Shown piece by piece: positions 1-14,565 of a stretch of 23,188 nt of DNA. The notes beneath the pieces were generated by a model. It saw nothing but the letters and a program-made list of their open reading frames with translations, searched no databases and was not told where the DNA came from. Where the stretch lies: the IMG/VR virus record IMGVR_UViG_3300038621_000003, positions 1 through 23,188 of that record. The stretch is one strand, 5' to 3'. This DNA is from a virus. The translations under genes were made by a program, and so were the position numbers. Position 1 is the stretch's first letter. Every line of letters starts with the position of its first letter.

Positions 1-216
1 GCCGCGCAGAAGTGGATGGACAGCAGCGTGTCCAAGACCGTGAACGTGGGGAGCCTCGTGACCTTCCCGCAGTTCAAGGACATCTACACCAAGGCGTTCC
101 ACGGCGGGGCGAAGTCGTGCAGCACCTTCCGCAAGGACGGCAAGCGGTGGGCGCTGCTCAACCCTGGGACGGCCTGCGAGGTCGATCCCGAGAGCGGGAA
201 GAAGGAGTGCGAGTGA
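1..216 (+). CDS. 3' end of an unknown gene, partial at left edge
   Basis: The frame is open from base 1 to TGA at 214-216, giving at least 71 residues. There is an ATG at 16, but only gccgcgcagaagtgg precedes it, with no ribosome binding site, so the true start probably lies outside the window. The visible part is soluble-looking, has no membrane segment, and carries three cysteines in its C-terminal half (CSTFRKDGKRWALLNPG, then TAC and KKEC). I do not recognise the family. The stop overlaps the start of the hydrolase gene (TGATG), so the two are translationally coupled and probably belong to one lysis-related transcript, though that role is only inferred from the neighbour. Confidence 0.6.
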   Translation, partial: AAQKWMDSSVSKTVNVGSLVTFPQFKDIYTKAFHGGAKSCSTFRKDGKRWALLNPGTACEVDPESGKKECE

Positions 217-623
217 TGATGGACCTTCGAGACGACGTGACGTTCCGGGACATCTGGGCGATCTACCAGACCGTCTGGGGTGAGGCCCGTGGGGAGACGT
301 ACCAGGGCAAGCTCGCCGTGGCGAACGTGATCCTCAACCGGGTCCGCGATCCCCGGTGGCCGGACACCGCGTACCGGGTCTGCCACGACAAGTGGCAGTT
401 CTCGGCCTGGAACGAGAACAACCCGAACCGGAAGAAGATGCAGAGCCTGTCGGCGGAGAACTTGAACAAGGAGTGCATGGAGGCCACCTTATATGCGGTG
501 GCTTCGGATGTCGATGTCACGAAGGGGGCGACCCACTACTTCGCCTCGTACATCGACACGCCCCGATGGGCCAAAGAGATGCAGGAGACGACCAGGATCG
601 GCACCCACCGGTTCTTCAAGTAA
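216..623 (+). CDS. SleB-type cell wall hydrolase (phage endolysin)
   Basis: 135 residues matching the Hydrolase_2/SleB family, which cleaves peptidoglycan. Visible signatures are WGEARGE at residues 21-27, with Glu23 the likely catalytic acid, then GKLAVANVILNRV, a FSAWN motif at 62-66, GATHYF near 104, and a C-terminal IGTHRFF. There is no signal peptide or membrane segment, so release to the wall would need a holin. AAGGAG at 202-207 is 8 nt from ATG 216, which I prefer over the second ATG at 219. It overlaps the upstream gene by TGATG. It is one of only two genes on the plus strand, converging on the virion gene block and followed by a strong terminator. Length is that of a bare catalytic domain, with no added binding domain. 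Confidence 0.9.
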   Translation: MMDLRDDVTFRDIWAIYQTVWGEARGETYQGKLAVANVILNRVRDPRWPDTAYRVCHDKWQFSAWNENNPNRKKMQSLSAENLNKECMEATLYAVASDVDVTKGATHYFASYIDTPRWAKEMQETTRIGTHRFFK

Positions 624-939: not shown

Positions 940-2469
940 TTAGACCGGTGGATACCAGATTATAAGTGCGTAGTTAATGGTGGCACCAGTGCCCGAGTTG
1001 TTGATGTTGAGGGTCAGGCCCTGGTTGCCGCCAGGGTTCACGTCCAACTTCACGTTCCCATTGGAGTTGTCGCTGATCGCGAGAACATTTAGCTGACCAC
1101 TGCTATTCACGCTGTAGCCGCCTTCGACGCTAACGGCGCGGTCACTAGAACCTGATGCCCAGAACGTGAGCGCCCCGGTCGCGCCATTGTCCTGGCGACG
1201 GTAGAACAGTCGGGCGTGGTAGTCACCCCCGGATAGGGAGATGCTGTCCGTGTTGCCGGCTGCAAGTGAGCCGGTGATCTCCGGCATGTTGCCGTAGTTC
1301 CAGATCGTGTTGCCGCGCACCGTGGCGCTGTCGTTGTCCTTGGCGATCAGCCGCGTCTCGGGCGAGTTGGCGTCACCGAGCACGAGGATGTTGTTGGCAT
1401 TGATGCCCGCGAGGTTCCGGTTGTTGCCGTTGTTGTCCTTCGACTGGAACTTGACGAGGTGGTTCACGCGGACGGTCCCCGTGAATGTGTCTCCCGCCAC
1501 GTTTGCCGGGGTGTAGCCCAGGCGGGCCTGGATGTTCGTGTAGAAGCTCTGGAACTCGTCGTCGAACACCCGGTTGTTCGTGCTGAGCGCGACCCAACCG
1601 CCGTTGCCGCTGTCGAGGTTGCCGTCGAACAGCAGGGCCACGTAGTCGTCCTGGAAGATTTGACCGCTGCGGATCGTGTTGCGCTGGTTATCGACCACCA
1701 CCTTGGCGCCGGTCGAGTTCACGTTCAGCGTGGCGCCGGCCACGACGGTCGTATGGAAGCGCAGGAACACCGTCTCGCCCGTGGTCAGCGCCGTGGGCGT
1801 GTTCGGAACCGCTTCGAGCGTGCTGCCGGTGCCCGTGGTCACAGCGAACCGGTCGGCCTGCCCGGCAACACCGAGGGTCTGCCGCGCCTCCGAAGCCGAG
1901 GTGTCGTCCAGAAGCGTCTCCGCGAACGACGACACCGGCACCTGATCGCTGTTCACGAAGCCGCTGAACGGCACCGGCTTCCCGTTGCTGTCGAACCCGA
2001 GGCCGGTGTTGCGGCGGTTCTCCTTGGTCGGCAGGATCAGGTCCACACTGGTGTCGTCAGCGAGGCCGATCCGTAGGGACCGCTCGATCTCCTGCCGACG
2101 CTCCTGGTCGCGGAGCACGGCTCGGTCCAGGCCCTCCTCGTGCGTCGCCGCAGGGAACGGGTCATTCTCCACGTAGTCGATGTCCTGGGTCTGCTTCGAC
2201 TGCCGCACGATGGTGATGCGGATGCCGGCGGACGGGGCCGAGTTGAACACGACCGTGCCGCCCGGATTGTTGAGCGACACGGAATAGTTGGTGCCCTGGG
2301 TGTAGACCTGCGTCTCGCCGGGGCTGATCCCATCGAGCGCGTTGCCCGTGGTGTTTACGCCCAGGACCTGTAGCTCGGCCTCGGTCAGCACCTTGAAGCT
2401 GAACGAGAAGTTCGTGGTGCTGCCGTCGCCGCTGTACTGCTGTCGAGCGTTCGTCGTGCTGACGGTCAT
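940..2469 (-). CDS. Tail fibre protein 2 (T7 gp17-type N-terminal anchor)
   Basis: 509 residues. Residues 1-145 (YSGDGSTTNFSFSF..., NNPGGTVVFNSAPSAGIRITIVRQ, DPFPAATHEEGLDR) look like the T7 tail-fibre N-terminal domain that attaches fibres to the tail, and closely parallel the fibre encoded just upstream. FAETLLDDTSASEARQTLG at about 182-200 is shared with that neighbour. The distal part differs: LGYTPANVAGDTFTG near 318 is a common tail-fibre motif, and the C-terminus is Ser/Gly/Asn-rich beta-type sequence ending in LIIWYPPV. Start ATG overlaps the preceding stop as TAATG, with AGGGAG upstream, so production of the two fibres is coupled. Likely role is host receptor binding. No chaperone or enzymatic tip was recognised. 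Confidence 0.88.
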   Translation of the reverse strand: MTVSTTNARQQYSGDGSTTNFSFSFKVLTEAELQVLGVNTTGNALDGISPGETQVYTQGTNYSVSLNNPGGTVVFNSAPSAGIRITIVRQSKQTQDIDYVENDPFPAATHEEGLDRAVLRDQERRQEIERSLRIGLADDTSVDLILPTKENRRNTGLGFDSNGKPVPFSGFVNSDQVPVSSFAETLLDDTSASEARQTLGVAGQADRFAVTTGTGSTLEAVPNTPTALTTGETVFLRFHTTVVAGATLNVNSTGAKVVVDNQRNTIRSGQIFQDDYVALLFDGNLDSGNGGWVALSTNNRVFDDEFQSFYTNIQARLGYTPANVAGDTFTGTVRVNHLVKFQSKDNNGNNRNLAGINANNILVLGDANSPETRLIAKDNDSATVRGNTIWNYGNMPEITGSLAAGNTDSISLSGGDYHARLFYRRQDNGATGALTFWASGSSDRAVSVEGGYSVNSSGQLNVLAISDNSNGNVKLDVNPGGNQGLTLNINNSGTGATINYALIIWYPPV

Positions 2470-4055
2470 TACTTGAACTCCCTTACGATCACGATGCCTG
2501 GAGCGCCGTCACCCCCGGCAGCGGCGCTGCCAGCGTTGTTGGTCGAGACGCCGCCGCTTCCGCCGGAGCCAAAGCCTTTGGCGTTGTCGCCGTCCCGCGA
2601 TCCGGTCGTGGCTTTCTGACGCGGCGTTGAGCCGTACACCGAATTGCCGCCTGGGCCGGTGCCGGAAATGCCACCCGAGAACGACGGGTTCTCGACGCTG
2701 CCCTCGCCGGGCACGTTCACGTCACCGCCGGATGCGGTGCCGCCGGAAGCGGAGTTGCCGACTAACTGGATTTTGTCCGATGGTCCGCCGGTATCGCCGC
2801 CGCTACCGCCGTTGCCGGTGACCGTGTTGGTGCCGTCACTCCACTGGGAATTGCCGCCGGCACTACCGGTGTTCCCGCCAGCAGCAGCACCGGAGCCCGA
2901 ACCGCCCACGGTGATCGAGGCCGAGTTGATGCTCGACACGTCGATCTCCTTGATGGCGTAGCCGCCGGCACCGCCGCCACCGCCGACAGCAGTCCTGCCG
3001 TTGGAGTTCGACGCGGCAGCGCCTCCGCCACCACCTCCGGCACCAAGGACCTCGACGAGGACGCGCACCGTGCCGGTTTCGCGGCTCCATGTGGTGTCGC
3101 TGGTGAACACCTTATAGGCGTTCAGCGTCGGCTGTTTCGGCTGGTTCGACGTGGCGAGGTCACCGAGCCCGAGGCTGATCCGGGCCTGGGAGCGGTTTTC
3201 CGCGACCCACTTGGAGCCGTTGCCCACAATGAACCGGTCCAGGTTCGGGGTCAGGCCGGCGATGTCGTTGAGGTTGGCGTTGAAGCCCTGCACGTCGGAG
3301 CCGATGGCCAGCCCCAGGTTCGCGCGAGCGCCGGAGGGCGTGCTGGCTCCAGTGCCGCCGTCGTCTACGGCGAGGTCGTTGATCCCGGAGATCGAGCCGC
3401 CCGTGATGTTCACCGAGGAGGCCGACTGCGTGGCGATACTGCCGAGCCCAAGCGTGCCGCGAGCGGTGGCCGCGTCGGTGTCATCGAGCAGCGTCTCGGC
3501 GTAGTTCGAGATCGTCGCCGCCGGGATGTCCTTGCCTGCCGAGGGGTTGCCCTGCGCGTCGAACGTCAGGACCTTGCCGGCGCGTTCGGAGGCCAGCGGA
3601 AGCTCGCCGTGCGTGGTCGGGTCGTCCCCGAGCGGGAAGCGCACCGAGAAGCTGATGCCGCGCTGGAGTTCCTGGGCGATCAGCGTCAGCTTGTCCAGCG
3701 CCTCCTCGTGGCTTTCTGCCGGGAACGGGTCGCCGGGCGTGTAGTCCGTGTCCTGGGTCAGCCCGGTGGACCGGCGGATCGTGACCCGGAAGCCGCTTGC
3801 CGGCGCCTCGCTCACGCCGAAGTCCACGGTGCCGCCGGGGTCGGTCAGCGACACCGTGAAGTCGTCGTTGAGCGTGAGCGTCAGGCTGGCTCCGGCAGAC
3901 ACAGCCGTGCCGTTGAAGTCCAGTTCGCCGGTCGTCGTGTTGGTCACCAGGACCGTGACATCCTGGACCTCACGGGCCGCGAACGCGAAGCTGAACTCGG
4001 TGGTTACGCCGTCGCCAGCGTACTCTGCCTGCGTGGTGGTCGTGCTGATGGTCAT
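2469..4055 (-). CDS. Tail fibre protein 1, T7 gp17-type anchor with glycine-rich tip
   Basis: 528 residues in three parts. Residues 1-145 match the T7-type fibre anchor (YAGDGVTTEFSFAF, LTDPGGTVDFG, DPFPAESHEEALDK). Residues about 185-310 are a shaft with typical fibre motifs (YAETLLDDTDAATARGTLG, DGGTGASTPSGARANLGL, GSDVQGFNANLNDIAGL). Residues about 314-528 form a glycine-rich domain starting KVFTSDTTWSRETGTVRVLVEVLGAGGGGGG and ending GAPGIVIVREF, like glycine-rich adhesin tips on other fibres and adhesins. This tip is absent from the second fibre. The ribosome site AAGGAG is a long 13 nt from ATG, so initiation may be weaker than for neighbours. Probably receptor binding; which host structure it binds cannot be told. 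Confidence 0.9.
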   Translation of the reverse strand: MTISTTTTQAEYAGDGVTTEFSFAFAAREVQDVTVLVTNTTTGELDFNGTAVSAGASLTLTLNDDFTVSLTDPGGTVDFGVSEAPASGFRVTIRRSTGLTQDTDYTPGDPFPAESHEEALDKLTLIAQELQRGISFSVRFPLGDDPTTHGELPLASERAGKVLTFDAQGNPSAGKDIPAATISNYAETLLDDTDAATARGTLGLGSIATQSASSVNITGGSISGINDLAVDDGGTGASTPSGARANLGLAIGSDVQGFNANLNDIAGLTPNLDRFIVGNGSKWVAENRSQARISLGLGDLATSNQPKQPTLNAYKVFTSDTTWSRETGTVRVLVEVLGAGGGGGGAAASNSNGRTAVGGGGGAGGYAIKEIDVSSINSASITVGGSGSGAAAGGNTGSAGGNSQWSDGTNTVTGNGGSGGDTGGPSDKIQLVGNSASGGTASGGDVNVPGEGSVENPSFSGGISGTGPGGNSVYGSTPRQKATTGSRDGDNAKGFGSGGSGGVSTNNAGSAAAGGDGAPGIVIVREFK

Positions 4056-4098: not shown

Positions 4099-6621
4099 TT
4101 AGGGTGCCAGTTCCAGGCTACCCGGCGGCAGGAAGAACTCGGTGTTCTGCTTGTCCTTGGTGAACGTCTCCTGCGACCGGAAGCTCTCCTCGGCCCGTGG
4201 GTCGATGGCCCGCTGGATGTTGTCCTGCACCGCACGGTCCAGGGCAAGCTGCGACCACCACAGCGAGCCGAAGGGGTTCACCTGATCCACGAAGTCGAGG
4301 AACTCACGCCCGGTGTTGTTGTCCCCGAGCGCCTCGGTCAGGCTGTCGCTGTCGCGGATCGCCTGGATGCCGCTCTCGGTGACAGCCTCACCGAACTGGT
4401 AGCCTTCCTTCATGGTCGTGAACGCCGGCCCGAGCAGGAAGCTGCCGAGCCCGAACTTCGAGACGCTGCCGAACATCACGTCACCGATCAGGCCCATCGA
4501 GCCCGCCCGCAGCATGGCGTCCTGCCAGAAGCTGAGGGTGTCCATCGGGGCTGGCTTCTTGCCACTGGTGAACAGGTCGAGTTGCTGCACGAGCCCGCCG
4601 GTCGCAGCGGTCGCCGCGATCATGCTGCTGAGGTAGCCGACTGCCGGAGCGACGCCGCGCTTGCTGGCGATCTCCATCGTCCGCATACCCTGCTGCGCGG
4701 TCAGCGTCACCGGGAAGCTCTTGAGCATCATCGCGGTGCGGGCCGTCTCACCCACGAACGTGCCGGCCCGGCCACCGAACGTCAGCGTGGCGCGCTCCTT
4801 CACGCCCGGCACCGGGACCGCAAAGCGGGCCTCCTCGACGAGGGTCCGCTTGAGCTTCCGCGCAGCCTCGGGCGCACCAGGACCGCCGGGATCGTCGAAG
4901 TCGCCTCGACCCTTCGGGGCAGCCACCAACTGCGGGTTAAGGATGCGCTCGCCCGTCTCCGGGTCGATGATCTTGTTCTCGTCGGCCCGGATAGCGTTCC
5001 AGTCCTGCTCGTCGATGCCTCGGGCCTCGAACGTCCGGCGCAGGTTGCTCGTAAGCTCGGACCACTGCCGGCGGCTCTGCCGGGTGATCTCCGAGAGCAT
5101 CTCCATCTGGAACGTCCACCGCTGCGTGGTGGTCCACCGCTCCAAGAGCGACAGGCGCATGACCGACTGGTTGACCGCATCGCCCAGGCGGACGACGCCC
5201 TTGGCCATGCCCATCTCGTCGATCATGGTCCGGTTCATATCCTGGATGCGGTTCGTCAGCCCGTTCGCCGTCAGGCCCAGACGGATCGCCATGCGCTGCT
5301 CGGCCTGAGAGCCCGGCTTGAACAGAGTGATCGTGCGTCCGATCTGGTCCTTGATGCTGCCGGGCAGCGAACGGCCAGTGGCGAACGCCTGCGCCGTACC
5401 GGCCAGCGGCACGTCGGTGAGGGCCGAGATGAACGCACCGCCGAGCGCAGCCGCGTTGGTGACCGACCGGAACAGGTGTCCGGCCTGGGCCGCACGGTCG
5501 CGCTCGGGCATGTTGATCTTGCCGCTCACCACGTCGTAGAGCGCGTCGATGTTCGCGAAGAACGGCTGTGGGGCACCCCGCTGCGCCATCTCCTGCTTGA
5601 TCTGGCGCACCGCCGCGTCGGGACGCGGTCCCAGGACGCGCAGGATCGCAATGTCCTCGGAGAAGTCCTCCATCTCAGAGATCAGCGTGTCGTAGATGTG
5701 CTCCTCGCTGTCGGCAGCACCGAACTTCTCCTGGGCCGCGAGCCAGTTGTCCGCGTCCTTGAACGTGAGGACGCGGGGCTGCGCCCGGTTGGCGCTCATG
5801 CTGTCCATCTTCGCGAAGGCGCCGCTGTCGCTCATGCTCTTGCCGTCCACGATGTCGTCGAACATCTGGCCGAGCATACGCTCCAGCCGGGCGTCCTCCA
5901 TCGGCAGGCCGTCCTCCACGTCGATCAGCGCCTCCCGGTCGAGCCGGGGCATGATCTCGTCGATGAACTCCCGCCGCGCGCCCTCGCGGGTCGGGTGCTT
6001 GCGCGTCAGGGCTTCGAGCTTCTGGCGGTCCCACTTCTGGGCCGGGCCACGGTTCTGCCGGAACGGCAGGAAGCCGCCGTGGCGGTTGAACTCGCGCACG
6101 GAGTATTCCTGGACGGCCTTGAGGCCCTCGGCCATCTCCTTGGCTCGCGGGTCGTCCACGCTCTCGCCCATCATCGCGCGGACCACGTTCTTCATCGAGA
6201 CGGCCTTCGGCACCTGACCCAGGACGTTGGGCCGGGCCTCCGTGAAGAAGGATGAGGCCAGCGCGTGCATCTCGCCGCGCACAAGCTCGCTCTCGCTCTC
6301 GATGCTCGGCTGCGTGATCCGGCGGGCCTTGTCGTAGGTGAAGAACGACTGGCCGACACGCGTCAGGTCCAGGCCACGCGCCTCCGCGTCCTGGAACAGG
6401 GTCTTGATGCTCTGCTGCTTGTGCAGCTTGTGCAGCCGCTCCTTGGCCCGCATGGCGATGCGGTTCTGCTCGCGGGCGCGGACCTCGTTGCCGGCCTCGA
6501 AGGCGTCACGCGCCGCACGCCGAGCGTCGTTGTACTCGCGCTTGATGCGGGTCGCCGTGGCCTGATCAACGATGCCCTGATCGGCCTTTAGCTGGATGCA
6601 CTTATCGAGCGTCTGGGTCAT
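4099..6621 (-). CDS. Large internal virion / DNA ejection protein (gp16-like position)
   Basis: 840 residues. The N-terminal 80 residues are a charged helix. RVLTFKDADNWLAAQEKFG at about 283-301 and DIAILRVLGPRP at about 323-334 resemble motifs I associate with large internal virion proteins of podoviruses. Small-residue hydrophobic stretches occur near 383-416, 655-690 and 710-745, suiting a protein that enters or crosses membranes during genome ejection. It occupies the T7 gene 16 slot, just before the tail fibres. No transglycosylase motif was recognised, whereas T7 gp16 carries one at its N-terminus. Start ATG overlaps the previous stop by ATGA, with GGAGG 9 nt upstream. Precise mechanism is inferred from position. 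Confidence 0.8.
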   Translation of the reverse strand: MTQTLDKCIQLKADQGIVDQATATRIKREYNDARRAARDAFEAGNEVRAREQNRIAMRAKERLHKLHKQQSIKTLFQDAEARGLDLTRVGQSFFTYDKARRITQPSIESESELVRGEMHALASSFFTEARPNVLGQVPKAVSMKNVVRAMMGESVDDPRAKEMAEGLKAVQEYSVREFNRHGGFLPFRQNRGPAQKWDRQKLEALTRKHPTREGARREFIDEIMPRLDREALIDVEDGLPMEDARLERMLGQMFDDIVDGKSMSDSGAFAKMDSMSANRAQPRVLTFKDADNWLAAQEKFGAADSEEHIYDTLISEMEDFSEDIAILRVLGPRPDAAVRQIKQEMAQRGAPQPFFANIDALYDVVSGKINMPERDRAAQAGHLFRSVTNAAALGGAFISALTDVPLAGTAQAFATGRSLPGSIKDQIGRTITLFKPGSQAEQRMAIRLGLTANGLTNRIQDMNRTMIDEMGMAKGVVRLGDAVNQSVMRLSLLERWTTTQRWTFQMEMLSEITRQSRRQWSELTSNLRRTFEARGIDEQDWNAIRADENKIIDPETGERILNPQLVAAPKGRGDFDDPGGPGAPEAARKLKRTLVEEARFAVPVPGVKERATLTFGGRAGTFVGETARTAMMLKSFPVTLTAQQGMRTMEIASKRGVAPAVGYLSSMIAATAATGGLVQQLDLFTSGKKPAPMDTLSFWQDAMLRAGSMGLIGDVMFGSVSKFGLGSFLLGPAFTTMKEGYQFGEAVTESGIQAIRDSDSLTEALGDNNTGREFLDFVDQVNPFGSLWWSQLALDRAVQDNIQRAIDPRAEESFRSQETFTKDKQNTEFFLPPGSLELAP

Positions 6622-8426
6622 GCCGTCCTACCTCCGAGGCAACCGTCGATCTCGCGCAGGATGTTCTCCTCTTGGTCGAGTTCATCCAGCGCCTCGTTGA
6701 GCGGGATTTCTTCGTCGCCTTCCTCGCGGAGAACCGTGGGGGTCGCTTCTTCCTCCTCGATCTCCTCCAGGACTGCGCGAAGCTGGTCCTTGATCTGCTG
6801 GTTCTCCTGCATGATCTGGTCGGCGGTCTGTTCGCCTTCGCGCTGCTGCCGGGCTTGGTTGCGCTGCGCCGAGGAGAGGGCGCGGTTGTGGCCCTGCTGG
6901 CGCTGCTCGACCTCCTGCTCCCGGCGCACCTGCTGGCTCTGCTGGCCCTGGCGGATTGCCGTGGCGATCTGGTCCGGCGTCACCTCGCGGCTGTCCACGC
7001 CGGTCACGCGACGCAGAGCCTCGCTGGACTGCGAAAACTCATCCTCGCCCCTGGCGATCCTCTCCAGCACGTCGTCCCGGTCGGCCAGGGCTTGGTTGAG
7101 GTCGGGGTCCGTGCGGATCGCCTCGCGCAGCCGCTTCTCGATCCTCGTGGCCTGGGACTTCTTGCCAGCGGCCTTCTGCTTCGTCGCAGCCTGCTCGGCA
7201 TCGCGCCGGAACTCGCGGGCCTTGATCGCGTCGGCACGCAGCGCCTCGACCTTCGAGAGCGACCGGGCGAACTGATCGGGGTCGTCGATCTCGTTCAGCA
7301 CTGCCCGCTGCTGTAGGTTCTGCTGCGCGTTGCGACTGCCCTGCCGCACACGCTGCCGGGCCATCTGCGCCAGTTCCTCGCCCACCTCGATGTCGCGGGC
7401 GCGCTCCTTGGCCGTGGCGCTGGCGCCGGAGCTTACCTCCACGTCCAGTTCCTCGGAGCGCACCGGGGCCTCAGCCGTGCGCGGACGGAACCGGCCCGAC
7501 ACCTTGAGGTCGGAGGCGTCGATCTGGTTGGCCTCCTGGTACTCGCGCCGCGAGGTCGGCGTGTCCGCGTACGGGTTCTGGGTGCGAAGCTGCTCGCTGC
7601 GCTCCGTGATCGAGGCCGCAGCGTTCACCTCGCTGTTCACGCTCTCGAACTCGCGGGTCTGCTTGAGCCGCCGGGCCGCGTCCCCGAGCGCGCTGACGCC
7701 CTTGCCCGCAGCCTTCACGCCGCCGGCCAGGACGCCAGCGCCTACCGCTGCCGCAGCGACGTTCTTCGCCGCGCGGCCAACACCAGACGGCAGACCCACG
7801 TCAGCACGGCGGGTCTGCGCGATGGCCTGGATCGGTATCTCGGTGGCCGTGGCGATGCCCGCTTCGATGGCCGCAGCCCGCGTGATGCCAGCCGCAGCCG
7901 AGACGCCGAACGGGAGGGTGGCGAGTACGATGGGGTCGATGGTAGCACCACCGACCGTACCGACGACGCCGGCCCCTGCGCCGAACGTCCCGGCCCGCGC
8001 CATCGTCTCCTTGAACTCCTCGTTGGTCTGCTGGAACGCCTTGCGGACATTCTCCTCCAGTTCCGCTCGCGAGGTGGCGAAGCTGACCTCCCGGCCCTCG
8101 GTCTGCTTCTGGACCTCCTCGAAGAACCGGTCGATTTCCTGGTCGAGGCTCTGAGCCTCACCGGGCGCGCGACGCGTAGCGCCGGGCTGCGCCGGACGGA
8201 TCGGGCCACCGAACGGGCTCACCGGCTTCGGCGGCGAGAACCCCTGGGCCTTCATCTCCTCGCGCACACGCTCGGCCTGCGCGAGAAGCTCGGCGTTCAC
8301 CGCGTCGGACGTGCCTAGCTGGCCGGCTTGGGCGCCAGCCAGGAACGCCTCGACCGGGCTCGGCGTAGGCCCGCCGGACGGGTTACGCGACACCCGGTTG
8401 AGGAAGTCGGTCGTCTCGAACGCCAC
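6618..8426 (-). CDS. Internal virion protein with hydrophobic centre and Gln/Glu-rich helical tail
   Basis: 602 residues. The N-terminal 100 are Pro/Gly-rich and soluble. Residues about 142-203 and 214-248 are rich in Ala, Gly and Val (GAGAGVVGTVGGATIDPIVLATL, then KNVAAAAVGAGVLAGGVKAA) and look membrane-active. From about 340 onward the protein is highly charged and Gln/Arg/Glu-rich, with extended coiled-coil character, ending in an acidic stretch (EEIEEEEATP, EEGDEEIPLNEALDELDQEEN). The start is GTG, overlapping the preceding stop as TAGTG, with GGAGG 5 nt upstream. Position between the gp15-like and gp16-like genes implies a capsid-stored ejection protein. No enzyme motif was found, and no direct T7 homologue is claimed. 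Confidence 0.72.
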   Translation of the reverse strand: MAFETTDFLNRVSRNPSGGPTPSPVEAFLAGAQAGQLGTSDAVNAELLAQAERVREEMKAQGFSPPKPVSPFGGPIRPAQPGATRRAPGEAQSLDQEIDRFFEEVQKQTEGREVSFATSRAELEENVRKAFQQTNEEFKETMARAGTFGAGAGVVGTVGGATIDPIVLATLPFGVSAAAGITRAAAIEAGIATATEIPIQAIAQTRRADVGLPSGVGRAAKNVAAAAVGAGVLAGGVKAAGKGVSALGDAARRLKQTREFESVNSEVNAAASITERSEQLRTQNPYADTPTSRREYQEANQIDASDLKVSGRFRPRTAEAPVRSEELDVEVSSGASATAKERARDIEVGEELAQMARQRVRQGSRNAQQNLQQRAVLNEIDDPDQFARSLSKVEALRADAIKAREFRRDAEQAATKQKAAGKKSQATRIEKRLREAIRTDPDLNQALADRDDVLERIARGEDEFSQSSEALRRVTGVDSREVTPDQIATAIRQGQQSQQVRREQEVEQRQQGHNRALSSAQRNQARQQREGEQTADQIMQENQQIKDQLRAVLEEIEEEEATPTVLREEGDEEIPLNEALDELDQEENILREIDGCLGGRTA

Positions 8427-8884
8427 TACTGCCTCCGTTGCAGTTCCTTCTTGATCACGTCGCGAGCCTCACCGACCGTCAGGTTCGAGCCGAACACCTT
8501 GGCATCCGAGGATTGTCCTTGGATGCTGGTCAGGGTCTTGCGAAGGCTCGCCTTGTCGTACTTCCGAAGCTCGCTCTGGAGTGGCTTAATGCCCTCGCCC
8601 TGCGGGTTCGGCTCCGAGGTCTTGGGCTTGCCCCGCTTCTCGCCCTTGCGGAGCATCCGGGGCTCCTCGGCGTCCTTCTCCCCGAGCAGCACCCGGCGCT
8701 CGCGGACCTGATCGCCCTGACGCTCACGCTGGCGCGTCATATCCGCCCGAGAGGTACGCGGCACCTTGTCCTTGGTGTCCCTCGGGAACGAGGTGCCGCC
8801 GGAAGTCTCCCGGAGGAACCGGTTCTGGCTCGGGTCCGTTGGTCCACCGAGGGCCTGCTCCAGTTCGTTGAAGAACGTGCCCAT
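8426..8884 (-). CDS. Unknown charged protein in the ejection-protein cluster
   Basis: 152 residues, very hydrophilic, with many Arg, Lys, Glu and Asp (TRQRERQGDQVRERRVLLGEK, MLRKGEKRGKPKTSEPNPQG) and a C-terminal helix-like part (LTVGEARDVIKKELQRRQ). No membrane segment and no motif that I recognise. The start overlaps the stop of the gp15-like gene as TAATG, and its own stop overlaps the next gene's GTG as TAGTG, so it is locked into the same translational chain. T7 has no counterpart between genes 15 and 16. It could be a minor ejected protein or an assembly helper; the sequence does not decide. Confidence 0.7.
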   Translation of the reverse strand: MGTFFNELEQALGGPTDPSQNRFLRETSGGTSFPRDTKDKVPRTSRADMTRQRERQGDQVRERRVLLGEKDAEEPRMLRKGEKRGKPKTSEPNPQGEGIKPLQSELRKYDKASLRKTLTSIQGQSSDAKVFGSNLTVGEARDVIKKELQRRQ

Positions 8885-11028
8885 TACTGCATACCCCTCT
8901 GTCCAGGTCCAGTTGGTGTCACCTGTCCGCCGTTGCCAGAGGTGTCACCCCCAGGATTTTGGCCAATTCCCAGGCCCTGTGGCCCCGGCGTCGCCTGTGC
9001 GGGGGTCGAACCCTCCGGCTGATCGGGCTCAAGGCTGACTTCGCTTGCCATAGCTTCGAGGTCAAGGATAAACGGCTGACCGGGCCGCTCCTTGGTGTGT
9101 AGCCCGCCACGGTCGCCCTCGAAGCGGACGATGTACTTGCCGTCAGCGCCGGCCCGTACGAACTGCGCCGAGCGGAGGTCCTCGGGCGTGACCTCCTCGA
9201 AGTCGCCGGTCGCCGGCTCACGGAACACCGGGGTGCCGTTCGCGTGCCGGCTGATCACATCGTCGTCGATCTGGCCGACGAGGCGCTGGAACTTGTCGCC
9301 GGTCATGCCCGGCACGGGCGGCAGGGTCTTTTTGTCGTTGATCTCGACCGGGCCACCGGAGACTTCGCCGGTCGGCGTGAACTGGCCAGCAGCGGTCAGC
9401 CGGAGCGCCCGCTTGAACCGGTCCTCGTTGAACTCGTCGATGTCGCCGGCCCGCAGGGACCACTGGGCGTACACGTCCTTGGCCGCGTCCACGACCGCCT
9501 GCTGCGTACGGGCGTCGGCCTCGAACGAGGAGCCCAGGACCTCCTGGGTCGGCTCCCGGATGTCCTTCGAGGTCATGGCGACGTTCAGTTGATCCGTGGA
9601 GCCCTCGGCCTCCAGGACCGTGCGGCTGACCTCCGGGCGCTCGCTGCTCATGAACATGGCCCAGGCCCGCTGCGGGTTGTCGTCCACGAAGCGGGCGGAC
9701 AGTTGCCGGACGGCCTTCTTGCCGAGGCCCTGGCGGATGTTCGAGAAGGTCTGCTGGACCGTCTGCGCGTTGCCCTGCTCGACCACCTGCTTCAACTGCT
9801 GCACCTCAGCGGCCTTGAAGTACATGCCGGCGGTCGGGCTGTCCATACCGAAGTGGTCGGCCACACGCTGCGCGGCACGCTTCCGCTCGCGGAGCGCACG
9901 CTGGAACTGGCCGCTGCCCTGGTCGGTCAGGTCCAGCGGGGTGAGGTCCTGCACCTTGCCCTGCCGCTCCAGAAGGTCCAGAGCGCGACCGTCACGGAAC
10001 GCCTCGATCTGACCCTCGTGGGCCTGCTGCATCATCTGGAGGGTGCGGAAGTCGGTGCCCTGCGGGTTCTCCAGCATCTGACGCTGTTCCTCGATGGACA
10101 TCGTGGAGAACCGGCGCACCTCGCCCGCAGCTTCCTCAGCGGACTGGATGCGCTCGCCAAGCTCGGTCCCGCTGGCAGCCGACTTGAGTTGGTCCGCCGT
10201 GAAGCCGTTGAACGTCACGCCACCGCGCACGGTGCCGCCGCCCTGCGACAGCGCCTGGATGTAGCTGTCCACGCCCTGCGCGAGATCGGCGTTCGCCTGT
10301 TTCAGGTCGCTCTCGATCTGCTCCTTGAGCGTGCGCTTGTCGTCCTGGCTCAGGAACTCGGCCTGATCCACGTAGTCCATCGCGGCGTTCAGGTTGCCGC
10401 CGTTCCGCAGAGCGGCGACCCGCTGCCGGTCGAACTCGCGCCGGGCCTGCTGGAAGCGGTTCTGGGCCTCCTCCGGCGTCAGCGCACCGGAGCGCACGAG
10501 GCGCTGCTGGCTGTCCTGGAGGCTCTCGATGGCCTGCCGGCGCTTCACTTGGTTGCCGGTCGCGAACTGATCGGACAGGGCGCGCGTCTCCTGCTCGAAC
10601 GAGGCCAGGGCCGCACGCTGCGACTTCTGGGCGCTCTCCCGGCGCAGGTCGATCACGTCGGCGGTGATCGAACGCGCGAAGTCCCGGCGAAGCTCGTCCT
10701 GGATCGTCGGGTTCGCTTCACTGACGAGTTCCTGGACGCGCTCCCGGGCCTTGGTCTTGAACCGCTCGGGGGCGTCGCGGAAGTCGGGGCTCTCCAGAGC
10801 ATCCTGCTTCATCCGCGCGAACTCCTGCGCGGCCTGGGTCTGGAGTTCGGCCTTCTGCTCCGCGACCGCCTGCTCGAACATCTGGTTGCCGAGTTCGCCC
10901 AGGGCGCTGCCTGCGGCTGCGATGGCCTCGCCCGTTGCCCCGGCATTACTACGGTCGCGGGGCAGCGACGGCAGACCGCCCCCTACCTGGGGGCCACTCG
11001 GAACGCCAGTGCGCGGAATACGGGGCAT
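8884..11028 (-). CDS. Internal virion protein, gp15-like by position
   Basis: 714 residues. After a Pro/Gly-rich N-terminus, residues about 25-450 are almost wholly helical with Gln, Arg, Glu and Ala heptads (for example FEQAVAEQKAELQTQAAQEFARM and FQQARREFDRQRVAAL). The C-terminal third has a more folded pattern (KYIVRFEGDRGG, GQPFILDLEAMASEV) followed by a disordered Gly/Pro/Gln tail. Length is near that of T7 gp15 (about 750), and it directly follows the gp14-like gene, so it probably belongs to the internal core and the ejected channel. There is no membrane segment and no recognisable lysozyme motif. GGAGG lies 7 nt upstream of ATG. Assignment rests on length, helicity and gene order. Confidence 0.78.
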   Translation of the reverse strand: MPRIPRTGVPSGPQVGGGLPSLPRDRSNAGATGEAIAAAGSALGELGNQMFEQAVAEQKAELQTQAAQEFARMKQDALESPDFRDAPERFKTKARERVQELVSEANPTIQDELRRDFARSITADVIDLRRESAQKSQRAALASFEQETRALSDQFATGNQVKRRQAIESLQDSQQRLVRSGALTPEEAQNRFQQARREFDRQRVAALRNGGNLNAAMDYVDQAEFLSQDDKRTLKEQIESDLKQANADLAQGVDSYIQALSQGGGTVRGGVTFNGFTADQLKSAASGTELGERIQSAEEAAGEVRRFSTMSIEEQRQMLENPQGTDFRTLQMMQQAHEGQIEAFRDGRALDLLERQGKVQDLTPLDLTDQGSGQFQRALRERKRAAQRVADHFGMDSPTAGMYFKAAEVQQLKQVVEQGNAQTVQQTFSNIRQGLGKKAVRQLSARFVDDNPQRAWAMFMSSERPEVSRTVLEAEGSTDQLNVAMTSKDIREPTQEVLGSSFEADARTQQAVVDAAKDVYAQWSLRAGDIDEFNEDRFKRALRLTAAGQFTPTGEVSGGPVEINDKKTLPPVPGMTGDKFQRLVGQIDDDVISRHANGTPVFREPATGDFEEVTPEDLRSAQFVRAGADGKYIVRFEGDRGGLHTKERPGQPFILDLEAMASEVSLEPDQPEGSTPAQATPGPQGLGIGQNPGGDTSGNGGQVTPTGPGQRGMQ

Positions 11029-11039
11029 GGATCAGCCTC

Positions 11040-11612
11040 CTAGAGGTTCTCGTTCGGGATGTTGCCGGCGACACCCGTCTGCGCGGTGCTGCTCGGGATG
11101 TTGTTGTTCTGGTCGAACGCACCAGCCCGGCGGGCCGTCTGCATCCCACCGGTCAACAGCGAAGTGCCAGCCTGGAAGAAGCCGCTCGTGCGGATGCTGC
11201 TCGCACGCTGACCAGCGTTCGCGGCCTCCATCCGGCTCTGGGTCGCACCTCGTTCGGTCTGGAGCGCCTGTAGCTCGCTCTCGAATAGCTGGTCCTGGAC
11301 GGCCAGTTCCTGCTGCATCGCCTCGTCGGCCAGCACGTCCGTAGGCGTGCCGCCAAGTTGGATGCCGCTGGAACCGATGGCAGCACGCGCGGTGCCGATC
11401 CGCCGATCACCTCGACGGCGCTGGCGTTCCGCACGTACCTGCGCGGCCTCACGCTGCGTCTCGGCCCGCTGCTCGCGCAGCCGAGCCTCACGCGCGGCCA
11501 TAGCCTGATTGAACTCAGCCTGATCCGCGCGGGCCTCTGCACTGGCGACGGTGCCGGCGACCGAGACAGCAGTGCTGACCGCCGTGGCGATGATGCCGAA
11601 AGTCGTACCCAT
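11040..11612 (-). CDS. Internal core protein, gp14-like
   Basis: 190 residues. It opens with a small-residue hydrophobic segment (GIIATAVSTAVSVAGTVASA, residues 6-25), followed by a long charged helix (AEFNQAMAAREARLREQRAE..., about 32-72). Near 80-90 comes GSSGIQLGGTPTDVLAD, a motif recurrent in gp14-type core proteins, then another helix and a small-residue C-terminus (SGFFQAGTSLLTGG). T7 gp14 has about 196 residues and forms the outer-membrane part of the ejected DNA channel; length and layout fit. The start overlaps the previous stop as TGATG. It sits between the gp13-like and gp15-like genes, the same order as in T7. Confidence 0.87.
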   Translation of the reverse strand: MGTTFGIIATAVSTAVSVAGTVASAEARADQAEFNQAMAAREARLREQRAETQREAAQVRAERQRRRGDRRIGTARAAIGSSGIQLGGTPTDVLADEAMQQELAVQDQLFESELQALQTERGATQSRMEAANAGQRASSIRTSGFFQAGTSLLTGGMQTARRAGAFDQNNNIPSSTAQTGVAGNIPNENL

Positions 11613-12070
11613 CAGCAGTCCCTTCCCTTGATCTTACTGAACAGGTAAACATCATGCCCATCCGGTGTCCAGGCCCGCATACGGCCTTCCCACTTGAACC
11701 CGAGGACAGCGGTCGTCCAGAAGATTTCGTCCTCCGCATCGACCTCGGACATCGCCTCGATCCGGCGGAAGTGGCCGTCCCGGTTCATCCAGCGGTGGAG
11801 GTTCCGGGCCAGGAACTTGAGGCGTCTGGTGCCGATCCCCTTGGCGATGATCGTCCACGCGCGGAAACGCGGGCCTGATCCCTCGTAGCCATCGTCGAGT
11901 TTGATCATGCCCACGACAGCGGACACCGTGCCATCCTCATCGACCACAGCCCAAGCAGGCCCGGTGTACCACAGCGGGTCATCCGGGGAGTGGAGTTGCT
12001 GCATCCACGCCTGCTCAGGCTTCGGGTCGATACGCCGGAGGTGGTCGGGCGTCAGGTCCTCGATGTGCAT
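11612..12070 (-). CDS. T7 gp13-like protein with GNAT-type fold
   Basis: 152 residues. The central part (AWAVVDEDGTVSAVVGMIKL) and the C-terminal part (GTRRLKFLARNLHRWMNRDG, then TTAVLGFKWEGRMRAWTPDG and HDVYLFSK) follow the strand-helix pattern of GNAT acyltransferases, including the usual late GF-x-x-EG element. T7 gp13 is a GNAT-related protein of similar length (138 residues), placed as here between tail tubular protein B and gp14. Whether it still has acetyltransferase activity is unknown; T7 gp13 is usually regarded as a virion assembly factor. GGAGG is 6 nt from the start. Moderately divergent, so the call depends on both fold pattern and gene order. Confidence 0.82.
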   Translation of the reverse strand: MHIEDLTPDHLRRIDPKPEQAWMQQLHSPDDPLWYTGPAWAVVDEDGTVSAVVGMIKLDDGYEGSGPRFRAWTIIAKGIGTRRLKFLARNLHRWMNRDGHFRRIEAMSEVDAEDEIFWTTAVLGFKWEGRMRAWTPDGHDVYLFSKIKGRDC

Positions 12071-12084
12071 GGCTTGCCTCCATC

Positions 12085-14565
12085 CTACTGTTGACCGCCT
12101 GCGTCGCGGTAGAACTCCATCGAGGCGCCGATCTGGAGAACCGTCATCGGCAGCGGTTGCGTGGACCGGACGACGATGTGCGCGTCCAGATCGTGGCGCA
12201 TCGGGAAGTTCACGTCCTTGAAGCCCGTGAACGGTGGAACCGGTTGGTCCATCGCCATCGAGCTATCGCGGAACTGGAGCGTGTCCAGGTTGTTGGTGTC
12301 GTATCCGTATTTGGCACCGACCGTCTCGTAGAAGAAGATGTGCAGCTTGTGGATGCGCTTGATCTTCCCCGAGAGCGTGTCTGCCTCGACGCCCGTGTTG
12401 AACGGGAACGTCCGCAGGCCGGCGTTGTACGGGAACCCAATGTGGACCACGCTCGCCTCGAAGTCCAGGTCGATCTGGCCGTTCGACACCACGCGACGCG
12501 GGTGAGCCGCGCCGTCCGCGAGGACCGCGACTTCCTCGCCCTCCAGGTGATCGAGCCCGGAGATCGTCTGGGTCGGGGACCCGTCGTAGGTGAGCCCGCT
12601 GTCCACGAAGAACGCGTCCTCGATGGGCTTCTCGTCGTTCAGCCAGGGCTCCTCCATGAACTCGACGTACCGGACGGGCGTGCCGTTCACCTCCCGGCGC
12701 ACCACCATCCAAATCTGGTCGAGGTTGCCCTCGGTGATGTTGGTGATGCTCTCGATGAACGCGTCACCGCCGTCGAAGGTGCCGCCAATGGTGTGCTGGT
12801 GCCACGCGAACACCTCCTGGTCGCTCTCGATGGTGAACCCGATCAGCCGGGCGTCGTTGCGGAGCGCCCACAGGATCGAGTTGCGGTTCTGCTGGTAGGC
12901 CAGCCGCACGATGCGGGGCCGCAGCAGATGCTCCGACACCACCGAGAAGTCCCGAGCCCGGAGGCCGTCGATGTCGAAGTCGAAGGCCAGTTCGCGGATC
13001 ACGCGGTTGCCCCGCTGCACGAACATGAGGCTGTGGCCGATCTTGGCCGGCGGCACGATGTCCGCGCTGCCACGGTTCGTGTTGCGCTCGGCCTCGATGC
13101 TGTTCGGGCTCAGCGGGTCCGTCGTGGTCGCCGCGCGGATCAGGAACTCAGCGCCCGAGGTGCCCACCGCGAGGCCGGCGTTCAGGCTCTCCATCCAGCG
13201 GATCGCGTTCACCTGCGAGGCCGAGATCGTGATGTTGATCGCATCGTCGTTCGACACGGTGCCGTCCCGCGCCGAGGGCTGGAACAGGTTGAAGTCCGCG
13301 ACGAACGAGAACCAGATGTTCTGCGGGTTTGTGTCGGTCGCGCCGAACACGAGACGCTGGTCGTGGAACGTGACCACTTGGGGCCAACCGGTCGTGGCGG
13401 ACCACTCGCCCAGGCGCCAATCCTTAGTCTCGGCGGAGTTCGCAAAGCCTTCGCCGTGGACCACGATCACCACCTCGGTCGAGGAGTTGTGGTCCACGAT
13501 CTCGGCCCAACCCCAGGTGCCGTCCTGCTTCAAGCGCACCACGCGGCCCACGTCCGTGGGCAGGAAGCCGCTGCCGTCGTTGATGCCGACCGTGCTGGAC
13601 GCGGTGAGCGTCCCGCGAGCGTTGCCGGAGGAGACGCTCGGGTTCAGCGTGGTCGGCGTCTCGTTGACCTCGCGGTACGGCCCATCCTCGAACGGGAACT
13701 TCACGAGCGAGAACTCGGTCGGACTGAACCGCTTCAACTGGTACGGCGGATGATCGGGGTGGCAAATCCACATGATGTCGGCGGACTGCACCCACTTGAG
13801 CGCGAAGATTTCCGTGTCGTTCCAGGGCGTCCCCAGTTCGACCGGCACGCCGTCCAGGATTTGCACGTCGTCGAGGTCCACCACGCCTTTCTGGTTGTCG
13901 GTCGTCTCGAACGCGAGGTGGATCGTGCTGTTGCCGTCGGGGTCCACGTCGATGACGTGCCAGCCCGGCGCGAGGTTGTTGTCGTACAGGTCGTTGCCGC
14001 CCTGCGTCGAGCCGACCTTCACGCGGGTCAGGAACTTCCGGCTCTCCTTCGCGTCCTCGATACGGAAGGCGAACGTGTGGACCGTGTCCGTGTTGGAGAT
14101 CGAAATGGACTGGCTGGCAATAGCGTGATCGGACCCCTCGGCCACAAGACCCAGGCGCCCGTTGCCGCGCGAGAGGTGGGTGATGTTGGCACTGCCCTGG
14201 CTCAGGTCGTCCCACCCCGAGATGTCGTTGTCGAAGGTCCCGTTCGTGACCGAGGCGCCCGACACGTCGTTGGTGAATAGCTGGCCCTCGTTCACGAAGA
14301 ACCGCATGTAGCTGCCGCCCATCTCCAGCACATACGTCTCCTCCACGGAGAACTCGAAGGGGAGCAGCCGCGTGGGGCTGTCCTCCTTCGTCTCCGCGAC
14401 GAACTTCGTGCCGGGCCGCTTCATGACCCCGCCGTGCGGGATCACGAGCATGTTGTTCAGTTCCTCGACGCCATTGAAGAAGCCCTGGAAGTCGATCCGG
14501 CCTTGCAGCCGGGGGCTCAGTTCGCCGCGCGTGAAGTTGGTCTGAACGTAGTCGAAGCGGGCCAT
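12085..14565 (-). CDS. Tail tubular protein B-like / tail nozzle protein
   Basis: 826 residues. The N-terminus (FTRGELSPRLQGRID at about 11-25, NGVEELNNMLVIPHGGVMKR at about 31-50, PGTKFV) is the signature of podoviral tail nozzle/tubular B-type proteins that form the distal tail below the adaptor. The body is beta-rich. T7 gp12 is about 794 residues, so the length fits. Ribosome site and start overlap the stop of the tail tubular A-like gene as TAATG, giving coupled synthesis of the two tail-tube parts. No membrane segments or catalytic motifs seen. A frame nearly as long lies antisense to it and is rejected as a composition artefact. Confidence 0.93.
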   Translation of the reverse strand: MARFDYVQTNFTRGELSPRLQGRIDFQGFFNGVEELNNMLVIPHGGVMKRPGTKFVAETKEDSPTRLLPFEFSVEETYVLEMGGSYMRFFVNEGQLFTNDVSGASVTNGTFDNDISGWDDLSQGSANITHLSRGNGRLGLVAEGSDHAIASQSISISNTDTVHTFAFRIEDAKESRKFLTRVKVGSTQGGNDLYDNNLAPGWHVIDVDPDGNSTIHLAFETTDNQKGVVDLDDVQILDGVPVELGTPWNDTEIFALKWVQSADIMWICHPDHPPYQLKRFSPTEFSLVKFPFEDGPYREVNETPTTLNPSVSSGNARGTLTASSTVGINDGSGFLPTDVGRVVRLKQDGTWGWAEIVDHNSSTEVVIVVHGEGFANSAETKDWRLGEWSATTGWPQVVTFHDQRLVFGATDTNPQNIWFSFVADFNLFQPSARDGTVSNDDAINITISASQVNAIRWMESLNAGLAVGTSGAEFLIRAATTTDPLSPNSIEAERNTNRGSADIVPPAKIGHSLMFVQRGNRVIRELAFDFDIDGLRARDFSVVSEHLLRPRIVRLAYQQNRNSILWALRNDARLIGFTIESDQEVFAWHQHTIGGTFDGGDAFIESITNITEGNLDQIWMVVRREVNGTPVRYVEFMEEPWLNDEKPIEDAFFVDSGLTYDGSPTQTISGLDHLEGEEVAVLADGAAHPRRVVSNGQIDLDFEASVVHIGFPYNAGLRTFPFNTGVEADTLSGKIKRIHKLHIFFYETVGAKYGYDTNNLDTLQFRDSSMAMDQPVPPFTGFKDVNFPMRHDLDAHIVVRSTQPLPMTVLQIGASMEFYRDAGGQQ

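Follow-up and report, generated by a model that had tools for sequence, protein, structure and literature searches.

Terminal cysteines in two proteins that together resemble T7 gp16 in an epsilon15-type podovirus ejection cassette

In podoviruses, proteins that exit the capsid refold into a channel across the cell envelope, and the way in which they do so is the question raised by a gene cluster at positions 4,099 to 11,612 of the IMG/VR virus record IMGVR_UViG_3300038621_000003. The window analyzed here is the whole stretch of 23,188 bases from that record (positions 1 to 23,188); its structural genes lie on the minus strand, and the podovirus families recognized among them include terminase, head-tail adaptor, head, nozzle, and tail-fibre proteins. 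The initial annotation of this DNA described an ejection-protein cluster that follows the order of T7 genes 14, 15, and 16, with two inserted genes and no recognizable lysozyme or transglycosylase. The five open reading frames (ORFs) of the cluster are present, all on the minus strand, with third-position GC contents (GC3) of 0.79-0.91, and neighbouring genes overlap or lie no more than 11 bases apart. From synteny, homology, and the distribution of cysteines, all obtained by calculation, we propose with moderate confidence that this is an epsilon15-type podovirus ejection cassette in which the equivalent of T7 gp16 is made as two chains that would be rejoined by an inter-chain disulfide between terminal cysteines. 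The features on which this proposal turns are the following (lengths in amino acids, aa).

4099..6621, minus strand: gp17, 840 aa (phrog_684; family hhalign comparison with T7 gp16; model compared with 9jyy_I)
6598..6600, minus strand: codon of gp17 Cys8, the sole cysteine of gp17 (cysteine count)
6618..8426, minus strand: gp16, 602 aa (family hhalign comparison with T7 gp16; alignment of termini with relatives L007 and L008)
6639..6641, minus strand: codon of gp16 Cys596, the sole cysteine of gp16 (cysteine count; alignment column)
7704..7940, minus strand: two hydrophobic Gly/Ala-rich gp16 segments, residues 163-181 and 223-241 (Kyte-Doolittle)
8426..8884, minus strand: extra small ORF, 152 aa, isoelectric point 10.1 (GC3 0.85; stop/start overlap with gp15)
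8884..11028, minus strand: gp15-slot ejection protein, 714 aa, no cysteine (slot as epsilon15/phiV10 gp15)
11040..11612, minus strand: gp14-type ejection protein, 190 aa, no cysteine (Pfam T7_gp14, PF24072; phrog_418)

In phages epsilon15 and phiV10, the genes run gp11-gp12-gp13-gp14-gp15-gp16-gp17, and their gp17 is a homologue of the 840-aa protein of the window, which has the same gp11-gp17 order with one 152-aa gene added between gp15 and gp16. The 190-aa protein is confirmed as a member of the T7 gp14 family, a family of outer-membrane proteins (PF24072, E 2.2e-6, 28.2 bits with a cut-off of 27; phrog_418, E 6.7e-21), in agreement with its first assignment as gp14-like. Residues 28-836 of gp17 match phrog_684 ('virion structural protein') at E 8e-115. 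The 714-aa gp15-slot protein, which is presumed to have the periplasmic tunnel role, produced a single PHROG match (E 0.028, in a search up to E 1), is 26% and 21% identical to the gp15 of L007 and L008, and is homologous to residues 172-493 of phage Komp gp15. In the same PHROG search (E up to 1), gp16 and the 152-aa protein had no match, and no Pfam family was found for gp16 at E 0.01, only DUF3443 at 0.078, below the cut-off.

The assignment of the 602-aa protein rests on a set of 88 loci with gp17 (87 and the window), 70 of which, including the window and its duplicate L009, have a recognized gp14. A large ORF ending in the gp16 signature lies between gp14 and gp17 in 70/70 of these, and the slot is also occupied in epsilon15, phiV10, SI2, YeP5, BcepC6B, VP2, and three pelagiphages, as well as in Acinetobacter phage 4316, Komp_PA14, BUCT708, and 69E27.1, many of these slot genes being annotated as hypothetical and assigned by position. 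The 602-aa protein (6618-8426) therefore occupies the gp16 slot and is not one of two insertions, as the initial annotation had it. It can be aligned with the gp16 of L007 and L008 over its first ~310 residues and in its acidic C-terminal tail, while the lytic middle of those proteins has no counterpart in the window protein. The other supposed insertion stands: among the forward ORFs of the 87 loci and the window, the 152-aa ORF (8426-8884) was seen only in the window and the identical record L009, and this basic ORF alone is extra in the cluster.

Profile comparison, predicted structure, and two natural fusions indicate that gp16 and gp17 correspond to the N-terminal half and the C-terminal (hub) half of T7 gp16, respectively, in line with the earlier suggestion that the functions of gp16 may be divided among separate proteins. 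Compared by hhalign, a profile of 57 non-redundant gp16-slot proteins matched residues 276-409 of T7-type gp16 (E 2e-6, prob 89; window-family columns 103-245), and a profile of 52 gp17 proteins matched residues 795-1147 (E 2.8e-6, prob 88; columns 308-675). Controls, one reversed and five column-shuffled per profile, gave E 0.13 or worse, and the gp15 profile gave E 0.23 in the same comparison. After removal of the 22 members with a lytic domain, the gp16 profile still matched T7 residues 284-409 (E 2.4e-5, prob 76). Individual gp16 proteins of relatives match the T7 gp16 family phrog_342 as well (K226, 4.4e-9; VP2, 2.2e-10; BcepC6B, 1.1e-17, the last falling partly on its SLT domain). Sequence searches of the PDB with the gp17, gp16, and gp15 profiles returned nothing better than E 0.029.

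The AlphaFold model of gp17 (predicted local distance difference test score, pLDDT, 82.7; predicted template modelling score, pTM, 0.84) points the same way. Among predicted viral structures (BFVD), Foldseek matched it to T7-type core proteins of 1292-1345 aa (E 1.7e-7 to 1.5e-5). In a second look with VIA-align, the core proteins of T7 and phage E1004 ranked first among 969 chains (T7 chain 9jyy_I, Z 7.6 with 264 residues aligned; E1004, Z 6.3 with 273), and the third-ranked row aligned 87 residues; the residue numbering of both core chains, which in the T7 chain runs up to 1272, was the basis for identifying them as gp16. The model of gp16 is nearly all-helical (mean pLDDT 68, residues 302-381 mostly of low confidence) and resembles chiefly coiled-coil, repeat, and membrane-helix proteins, with a prefoldin-like C-terminal part (516-601). 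Its Gly/Ala-rich segments (Kyte-Doolittle 19-residue means 1.61 and 1.53) are a possible membrane part. As the gp16 match ends at T7 residue 409, and residue 85 of the gp17 model superposes on T7 527 and E1004 500, the break is at about T7 residue 410-530. According to a figure legend in PMC8954989, residues 411-1118 of T7 gp16 were fitted to cytoplasmic density.

Fused versions of the two proteins exist. A single 1450-aa ORF (L102:7071-11423) contains a gp16 match followed by a gp17 match, and a second ORF of 1663 aa from the same genome (L177, G001) was identified as gp17 by hidden Markov model (HMM), with its gp16 part recognized in a protein search with the first fusion. A scan of viral contigs with the fusion protein found no relative. 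The 1450-aa fusion also holds an HEMFH stretch mid-protein, which we take to resemble a zinc-peptidase motif. The gp16/gp17 split is the usual condition in the epsilon15-type group and does not set this phage apart.

The cysteines of these proteins follow a strict pattern. Window gp14, gp15, and the 152-aa protein are free of cysteine; C596 (of 602 residues) is the only one in gp16, and C8 (of 840) the only one in gp17. A cysteine within the last 12 residues of gp16 together with one near the start of gp17 was found in 70/70 loci, with no other cysteine in 65 of the 70 gp16 and 62 of the 70 gp17 proteins; for gp17, any in-frame start codon among the first 45 residues was allowed, and a cysteine was counted if it followed such a codon within 12 residues. 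In the non-redundant sets, from which L009 (identical to the window) was excluded, 57/57 gp16 proteins have the C-terminal cysteine (54 no other) and 52/52 gp17 proteins the N-terminal one (47 no other). L037 and L038, whose gp16 is unusual, were excluded from the gp16 set, and both have the C-terminal cysteine. Across 49 aligned gp16-slot proteins, the terminal cysteine is the only invariant column. Median pairwise identity is 17.5% for gp16 and 28% for gp17. The non-redundant gp15 proteins contain 2 cysteines in 36,690 residues, and the nozzle proteins 214 in 36,615. As a separate observation, gp14 has a cysteine at residue 2 in T7, epsilon15, phiV10, and YeP5, and none in the window.

The pattern extends to further samples. 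The 18 of 88 loci without a recognized gp14, left out of the 70 and of the non-redundant sets (57, 52, and 50 for gp16, gp17, and gp15), keep the cysteines in 15/15 gp17 proteins with their start in the locus and in 10/10 recognized gp16 proteins (L043, L046, and L064 end at a contig edge). In 14 named phages, five of which are also in the 70-locus count, 15/15 gp16/gp17 pairs have both cysteines; Vibrio phage K226 (L004:10110-17662) carries two tandem pairs, each with its own terminal cysteines. Among 21 prophage loci, several of which duplicate IMG/VR loci and a few of which show an extra cysteine or an over-extended start, 18 are split, all with both cysteines, two are broken (L105, L109), and one is a fusion. 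A further draw of 398 genomes of one phylum yielded 12 with a match and 9 with gp17, and the N-terminal cysteine is present in 9/9; in six of these loci the upstream ORF, not HMM-checked, ends in a C-terminal cysteine, two have no recognizable gp16 alongside, one lies at a contig start, and one repeats L104. Among the split pairs examined, the two cysteines are thus present wherever both proteins were recognized. Searches of open-access literature, which mostly did not cover subscription papers, turned up no report of a cysteine or disulfide in gp16/gp17, and the word 'cysteine' is absent from the main text of PMC5512222.

Unbroken chains differ. Single-chain gp16 proteins of the T7 type have no cysteine in 49/54 cases (a redundant set; 19/20 representatives), and both gp16-gp17 fusions have no cysteine at the junction, each having one or more elsewhere.

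The terminal cysteines might owe their presence to the gene junction, that is, to reading-frame overlap and the ribosome-binding site, and not to protein function: the gp16 and gp17 frames overlap in 33/52 loci, and the cysteine codon of window gp16 lies just upstream of the GGAGG preceding gp17. However, TGC and TGT are both used at each site (33/24 and 28/26), the pair is kept where the two genes are 0.7-1.5 kb apart, and the residues flanking the cysteines vary among loci. This explanation is already disfavoured, and we consider it very improbable.

The T7 protein is one chain where here there are two, so that the paired terminal cysteines most simply replace a peptide bond. By analogy with T7, gp14, gp15, gp16, and gp17 would leave the capsid ahead of the DNA; gp16, as the N-terminal half, would span the inner membrane through its hydrophobic segments, its middle serving as a variable payload position, here apparently without a lytic domain, and gp17 would form the C-terminal hub. 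Each half would contribute its lone conserved cysteine at the end facing the break, and a disulfide between them would substitute for the missing peptide bond. Such a bond could form once the particle has left the host or, during ejection, in the oxidising periplasm, and the cytoplasm could reduce it and let the hub go, which may have a role in DNA entry. More tentatively, the bond might act as a redox-timed clasp: the halves would exit the virion as one thread, cytoplasmic reduction would free the DNA-translocating hub, with any gp16 payload, from the membrane part, and gp15-gp17 would be kept free of other cysteines to avoid incorrect bonds in the periplasm. We offer this extension as speculation.

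An alternative that accepts gp16 and gp17 as the two halves of T7 gp16 is that their cysteines are not bonded to each other, engaging instead in gp16-gp16 and gp17-gp17 contacts or jointly binding a metal ion in the core ring. One cysteine per chain of a multimeric core could pair inside a ring, and the N-terminal cysteine of gp17 is kept in some loci with no recognizable gp16 alongside (L187/L195, L190/L194, L057, L063, L075, and L076), an observation that counts against the inter-chain bond as well. Nevertheless, both cysteines are at the ends that meet at the break, and they are absent from unbroken chains, as in most of the T7-type proteins and at the junction of the two fusions. Same-protein pairing does not predict that absence; we regard this alternative as possible, though rather unlikely.

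Other observations also weigh against two halves rejoined by a disulfide. The cytoplasm, a reducing setting, is both the site of virion assembly and the presumed final location of the hub. Extra cysteines occur in 5/70 gp16 and 8/70 gp17 proteins. Taken singly, the window sequences match T7 gp16 weakly (gp16, E 0.0013; gp17, E 0.085); a Z of 7.6 falls within the range that VIA-align calls unremarkable for helical models; and Foldseek found no match for the gp17 model in the PDB at E 1e-3, with no T7 protein among the 50 rows listed. The gp16 HMM has no match on the 1663-aa fusion, both fusions come from one metagenome-assembled genome, and the fusion contigs may be misbinned, because only 1 of 394 genomes searched of that order, their own, has the protein. 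Finally, the equivalence of gp15 is positional only, its profile scoring no better than E 0.14 against T7 gp15.

The cluster also raises the question of how the cell wall is crossed. Lysozyme-like domains were sought by sequence in all five proteins and by structure prediction in gp16 and gp17, and the reported absence of a recognizable lysozyme or transglycosylase was borne out within these methods. There was no Pfam or PHROG lytic match at E up to 1 in any of the five. Against ten probes of lytic domains or lytic proteins, the single sequences of gp15, gp16, and gp17 gave nothing below E 0.025, except for the whole-protein homology of gp15 to Komp gp15; the N-terminal lytic transglycosylase of T7 (gp16 residues 1-160) was not found in these three (E 0.38-0.85), and the best E for the 152-aa protein and gp14 against six lytic probes was 0.033. 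Structure comparison of the 602-aa model had no lysozyme row among the matches listed, which does not exclude one. Thus, of the checks that the initial annotation proposed for all five proteins, profile searches covered all and structural models two, and no lytic fold was found; its divergent lytic domain was looked for without success, in gp15, gp14, and the 152-aa protein by sequence only.

Relatives place this in context. HMMs built from relatives detect a lysozyme-like domain mid-protein in 22/57 non-redundant gp16-slot proteins and, with two probes only, in 1/50 gp15-slot proteins; Pfam family-level lytic matches number at most 15/49 for gp16 (overlaps not resolved) and 1/45 for gp15. The domain is in gp15 in epsilon15 (by annotation) and in Skadi-2 and BUCT708 (by Pfam), and in gp16 in BcepC6B and 4316; YeP5 and VP2 have no lytic family by Pfam in either protein. 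A pesticin domain is annotated in Greip gp15, yet Pfam gave no family for this protein at 0.01. The Komp gp15 'endolysin' was set aside: its PHROG match is a family label, and a Pfam scan of the protein at E 0.01 recovered no family. In the gp16-slot proteins of relatives (alignment A7; Pfam at E 0.01, n = 49), we also observed ddrB-ParB in 9, Zeta_toxin in 6, Phage_lysozyme2 in 6, SLT in 5, PBECR1 in 2, and ART-PolyVal in 1, with GNAT among the rarer domains.

The initial annotation had left room for inserted extra genes together with a different wall-cutting activity, or a divergent lysozyme hidden in one of the five proteins. Weak domains can indeed escape detection, as epsilon15 gp15, annotated as a transglycosylase, was missed by Pfam, and the full gp16 profile matched two lysozyme probes at E 1.8e-11 and 8.6e-13. 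That match was rejected as an alignment artefact, window columns 330-427 being contaminated by aligned lysozyme-bearing members, because it disappeared once the window sequence was used by itself or the 22 members with a lysozyme were taken out of the profile. The nearly all-helical 602-aa model likewise speaks against a hidden lysozyme, and window gp15 aligns with relatives that have no lytic insert and is gapped at the extra stretch of phiV10 gp15. We consider this explanation improbable. A gp16 lytic domain that has been lost or moved elsewhere already forms part of the mosaic picture described in PMC8954989 (P22, Sf6, and K1E), so that no new activity is needed, and the suggested crossing by a different activity was not substantiated. 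By analogy, either no dedicated ejected lysozyme would be needed, as described for P22-like phages, or an enzyme not recognized here may act. The state without a lysozyme is ordinary, and the cluster is epsilon15-type and not new in kind.

Three neighbouring features complete the picture.

11612..12070, minus strand: gp13-type small protein, cassette neighbour (phrog_4177, 4.5e-13; phrog_308, 0.0016)
12085..14565, minus strand: tail nozzle (gp12-type), cassette neighbour (phrog_376, 4.7e-202; Pfam Phage_nozzle, 1.7e-9)
12..623, plus strand: endolysin, on the opposite strand (phrog_938 endolysin, 3e-21, residues 76-203)

The epsilon15 gp13 is annotated as an acetyltransferase (GNAT-like). The endolysin is the only peptidoglycan hydrolase recognized among the window proteins scanned. 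The duplicate L009 shares 15,857 identical bases with the window and reaches 1,590 bases farther; an ORF upstream of the endolysin, encoded like it on the other strand from the structural genes, resembles ribonucleotide reductase by eye (window 1-623, plus strand; L009 15235-17447). Two adjacent tail-fibre genes (window 940-2469 and 2469-4055) have N-terminal matches to the same families, phrog_1640 and phrog_13893.

The cysteine pair, and not the cluster or the absent lysozyme, is the feature that merits attention. Present in 70/70 loci and absent from most whole-chain T7-type proteins and from two fusions, it is directly testable on laboratory phages and bears on how the trans-envelope channel is built. 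Proteins that mostly bear the label hypothetical or virion structural would gain gp16 and gp17 roles, and gp16 would emerge as a modular carrier with a middle that can be occupied by a lysozyme, by a ParB-like or Zeta-toxin-like domain, or by no recognized domain.

Among known systems, the polyvalent proteins of Iyer et al. 2017 (PMC5512222) are relevant in that domains of that kind occur in the gp16 of several relatives, whereas none was found in window gp16; that paper describes DdrB-ParB-lysozyme fusions in Acinetobacter prophages. P22 and Sf6 can be likened to the window, by their description in PMC8954989, in having a gp16-type protein without a peptidoglycan-hydrolase domain. The closest counterparts are epsilon15 and phiV10 (Uetakevirus gp13-gp17), which share the gene order, the gp17 family, and the terminal cysteine pair in gp16 and gp17. 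The window differs from them in its extra 152-aa gene, in a gp16 with no PHROG match and a gp15 with one (at 0.028), and in a gp15 in which no insert was found like the annotated lytic transglycosylase of epsilon15 gp15. Table 1 of PMC8954989 lists gp11 (229 aa), gp12 (499 aa), and gp13 (708 aa) as the gp14-, gp15-, and gp16-like proteins of epsilon15; this row looks mis-assigned, because in the GenBank record (L111, AY150271.2) gp13 has 154 aa and the cassette is at gp14-gp17. The gp14-gp15-gp16 ejectosome of T7 shares the gp14 family with the window, and window gp16 and gp17 match two successive stretches of T7 gp16, while the two gp15 proteins have no detectable similarity. The T7 gp16 has an N-terminal lytic transglycosylase, not found in window gp16, and no cysteine, and it is a single chain of ~1300 aa, whereas the window encodes two chains of 602 and 840 aa.

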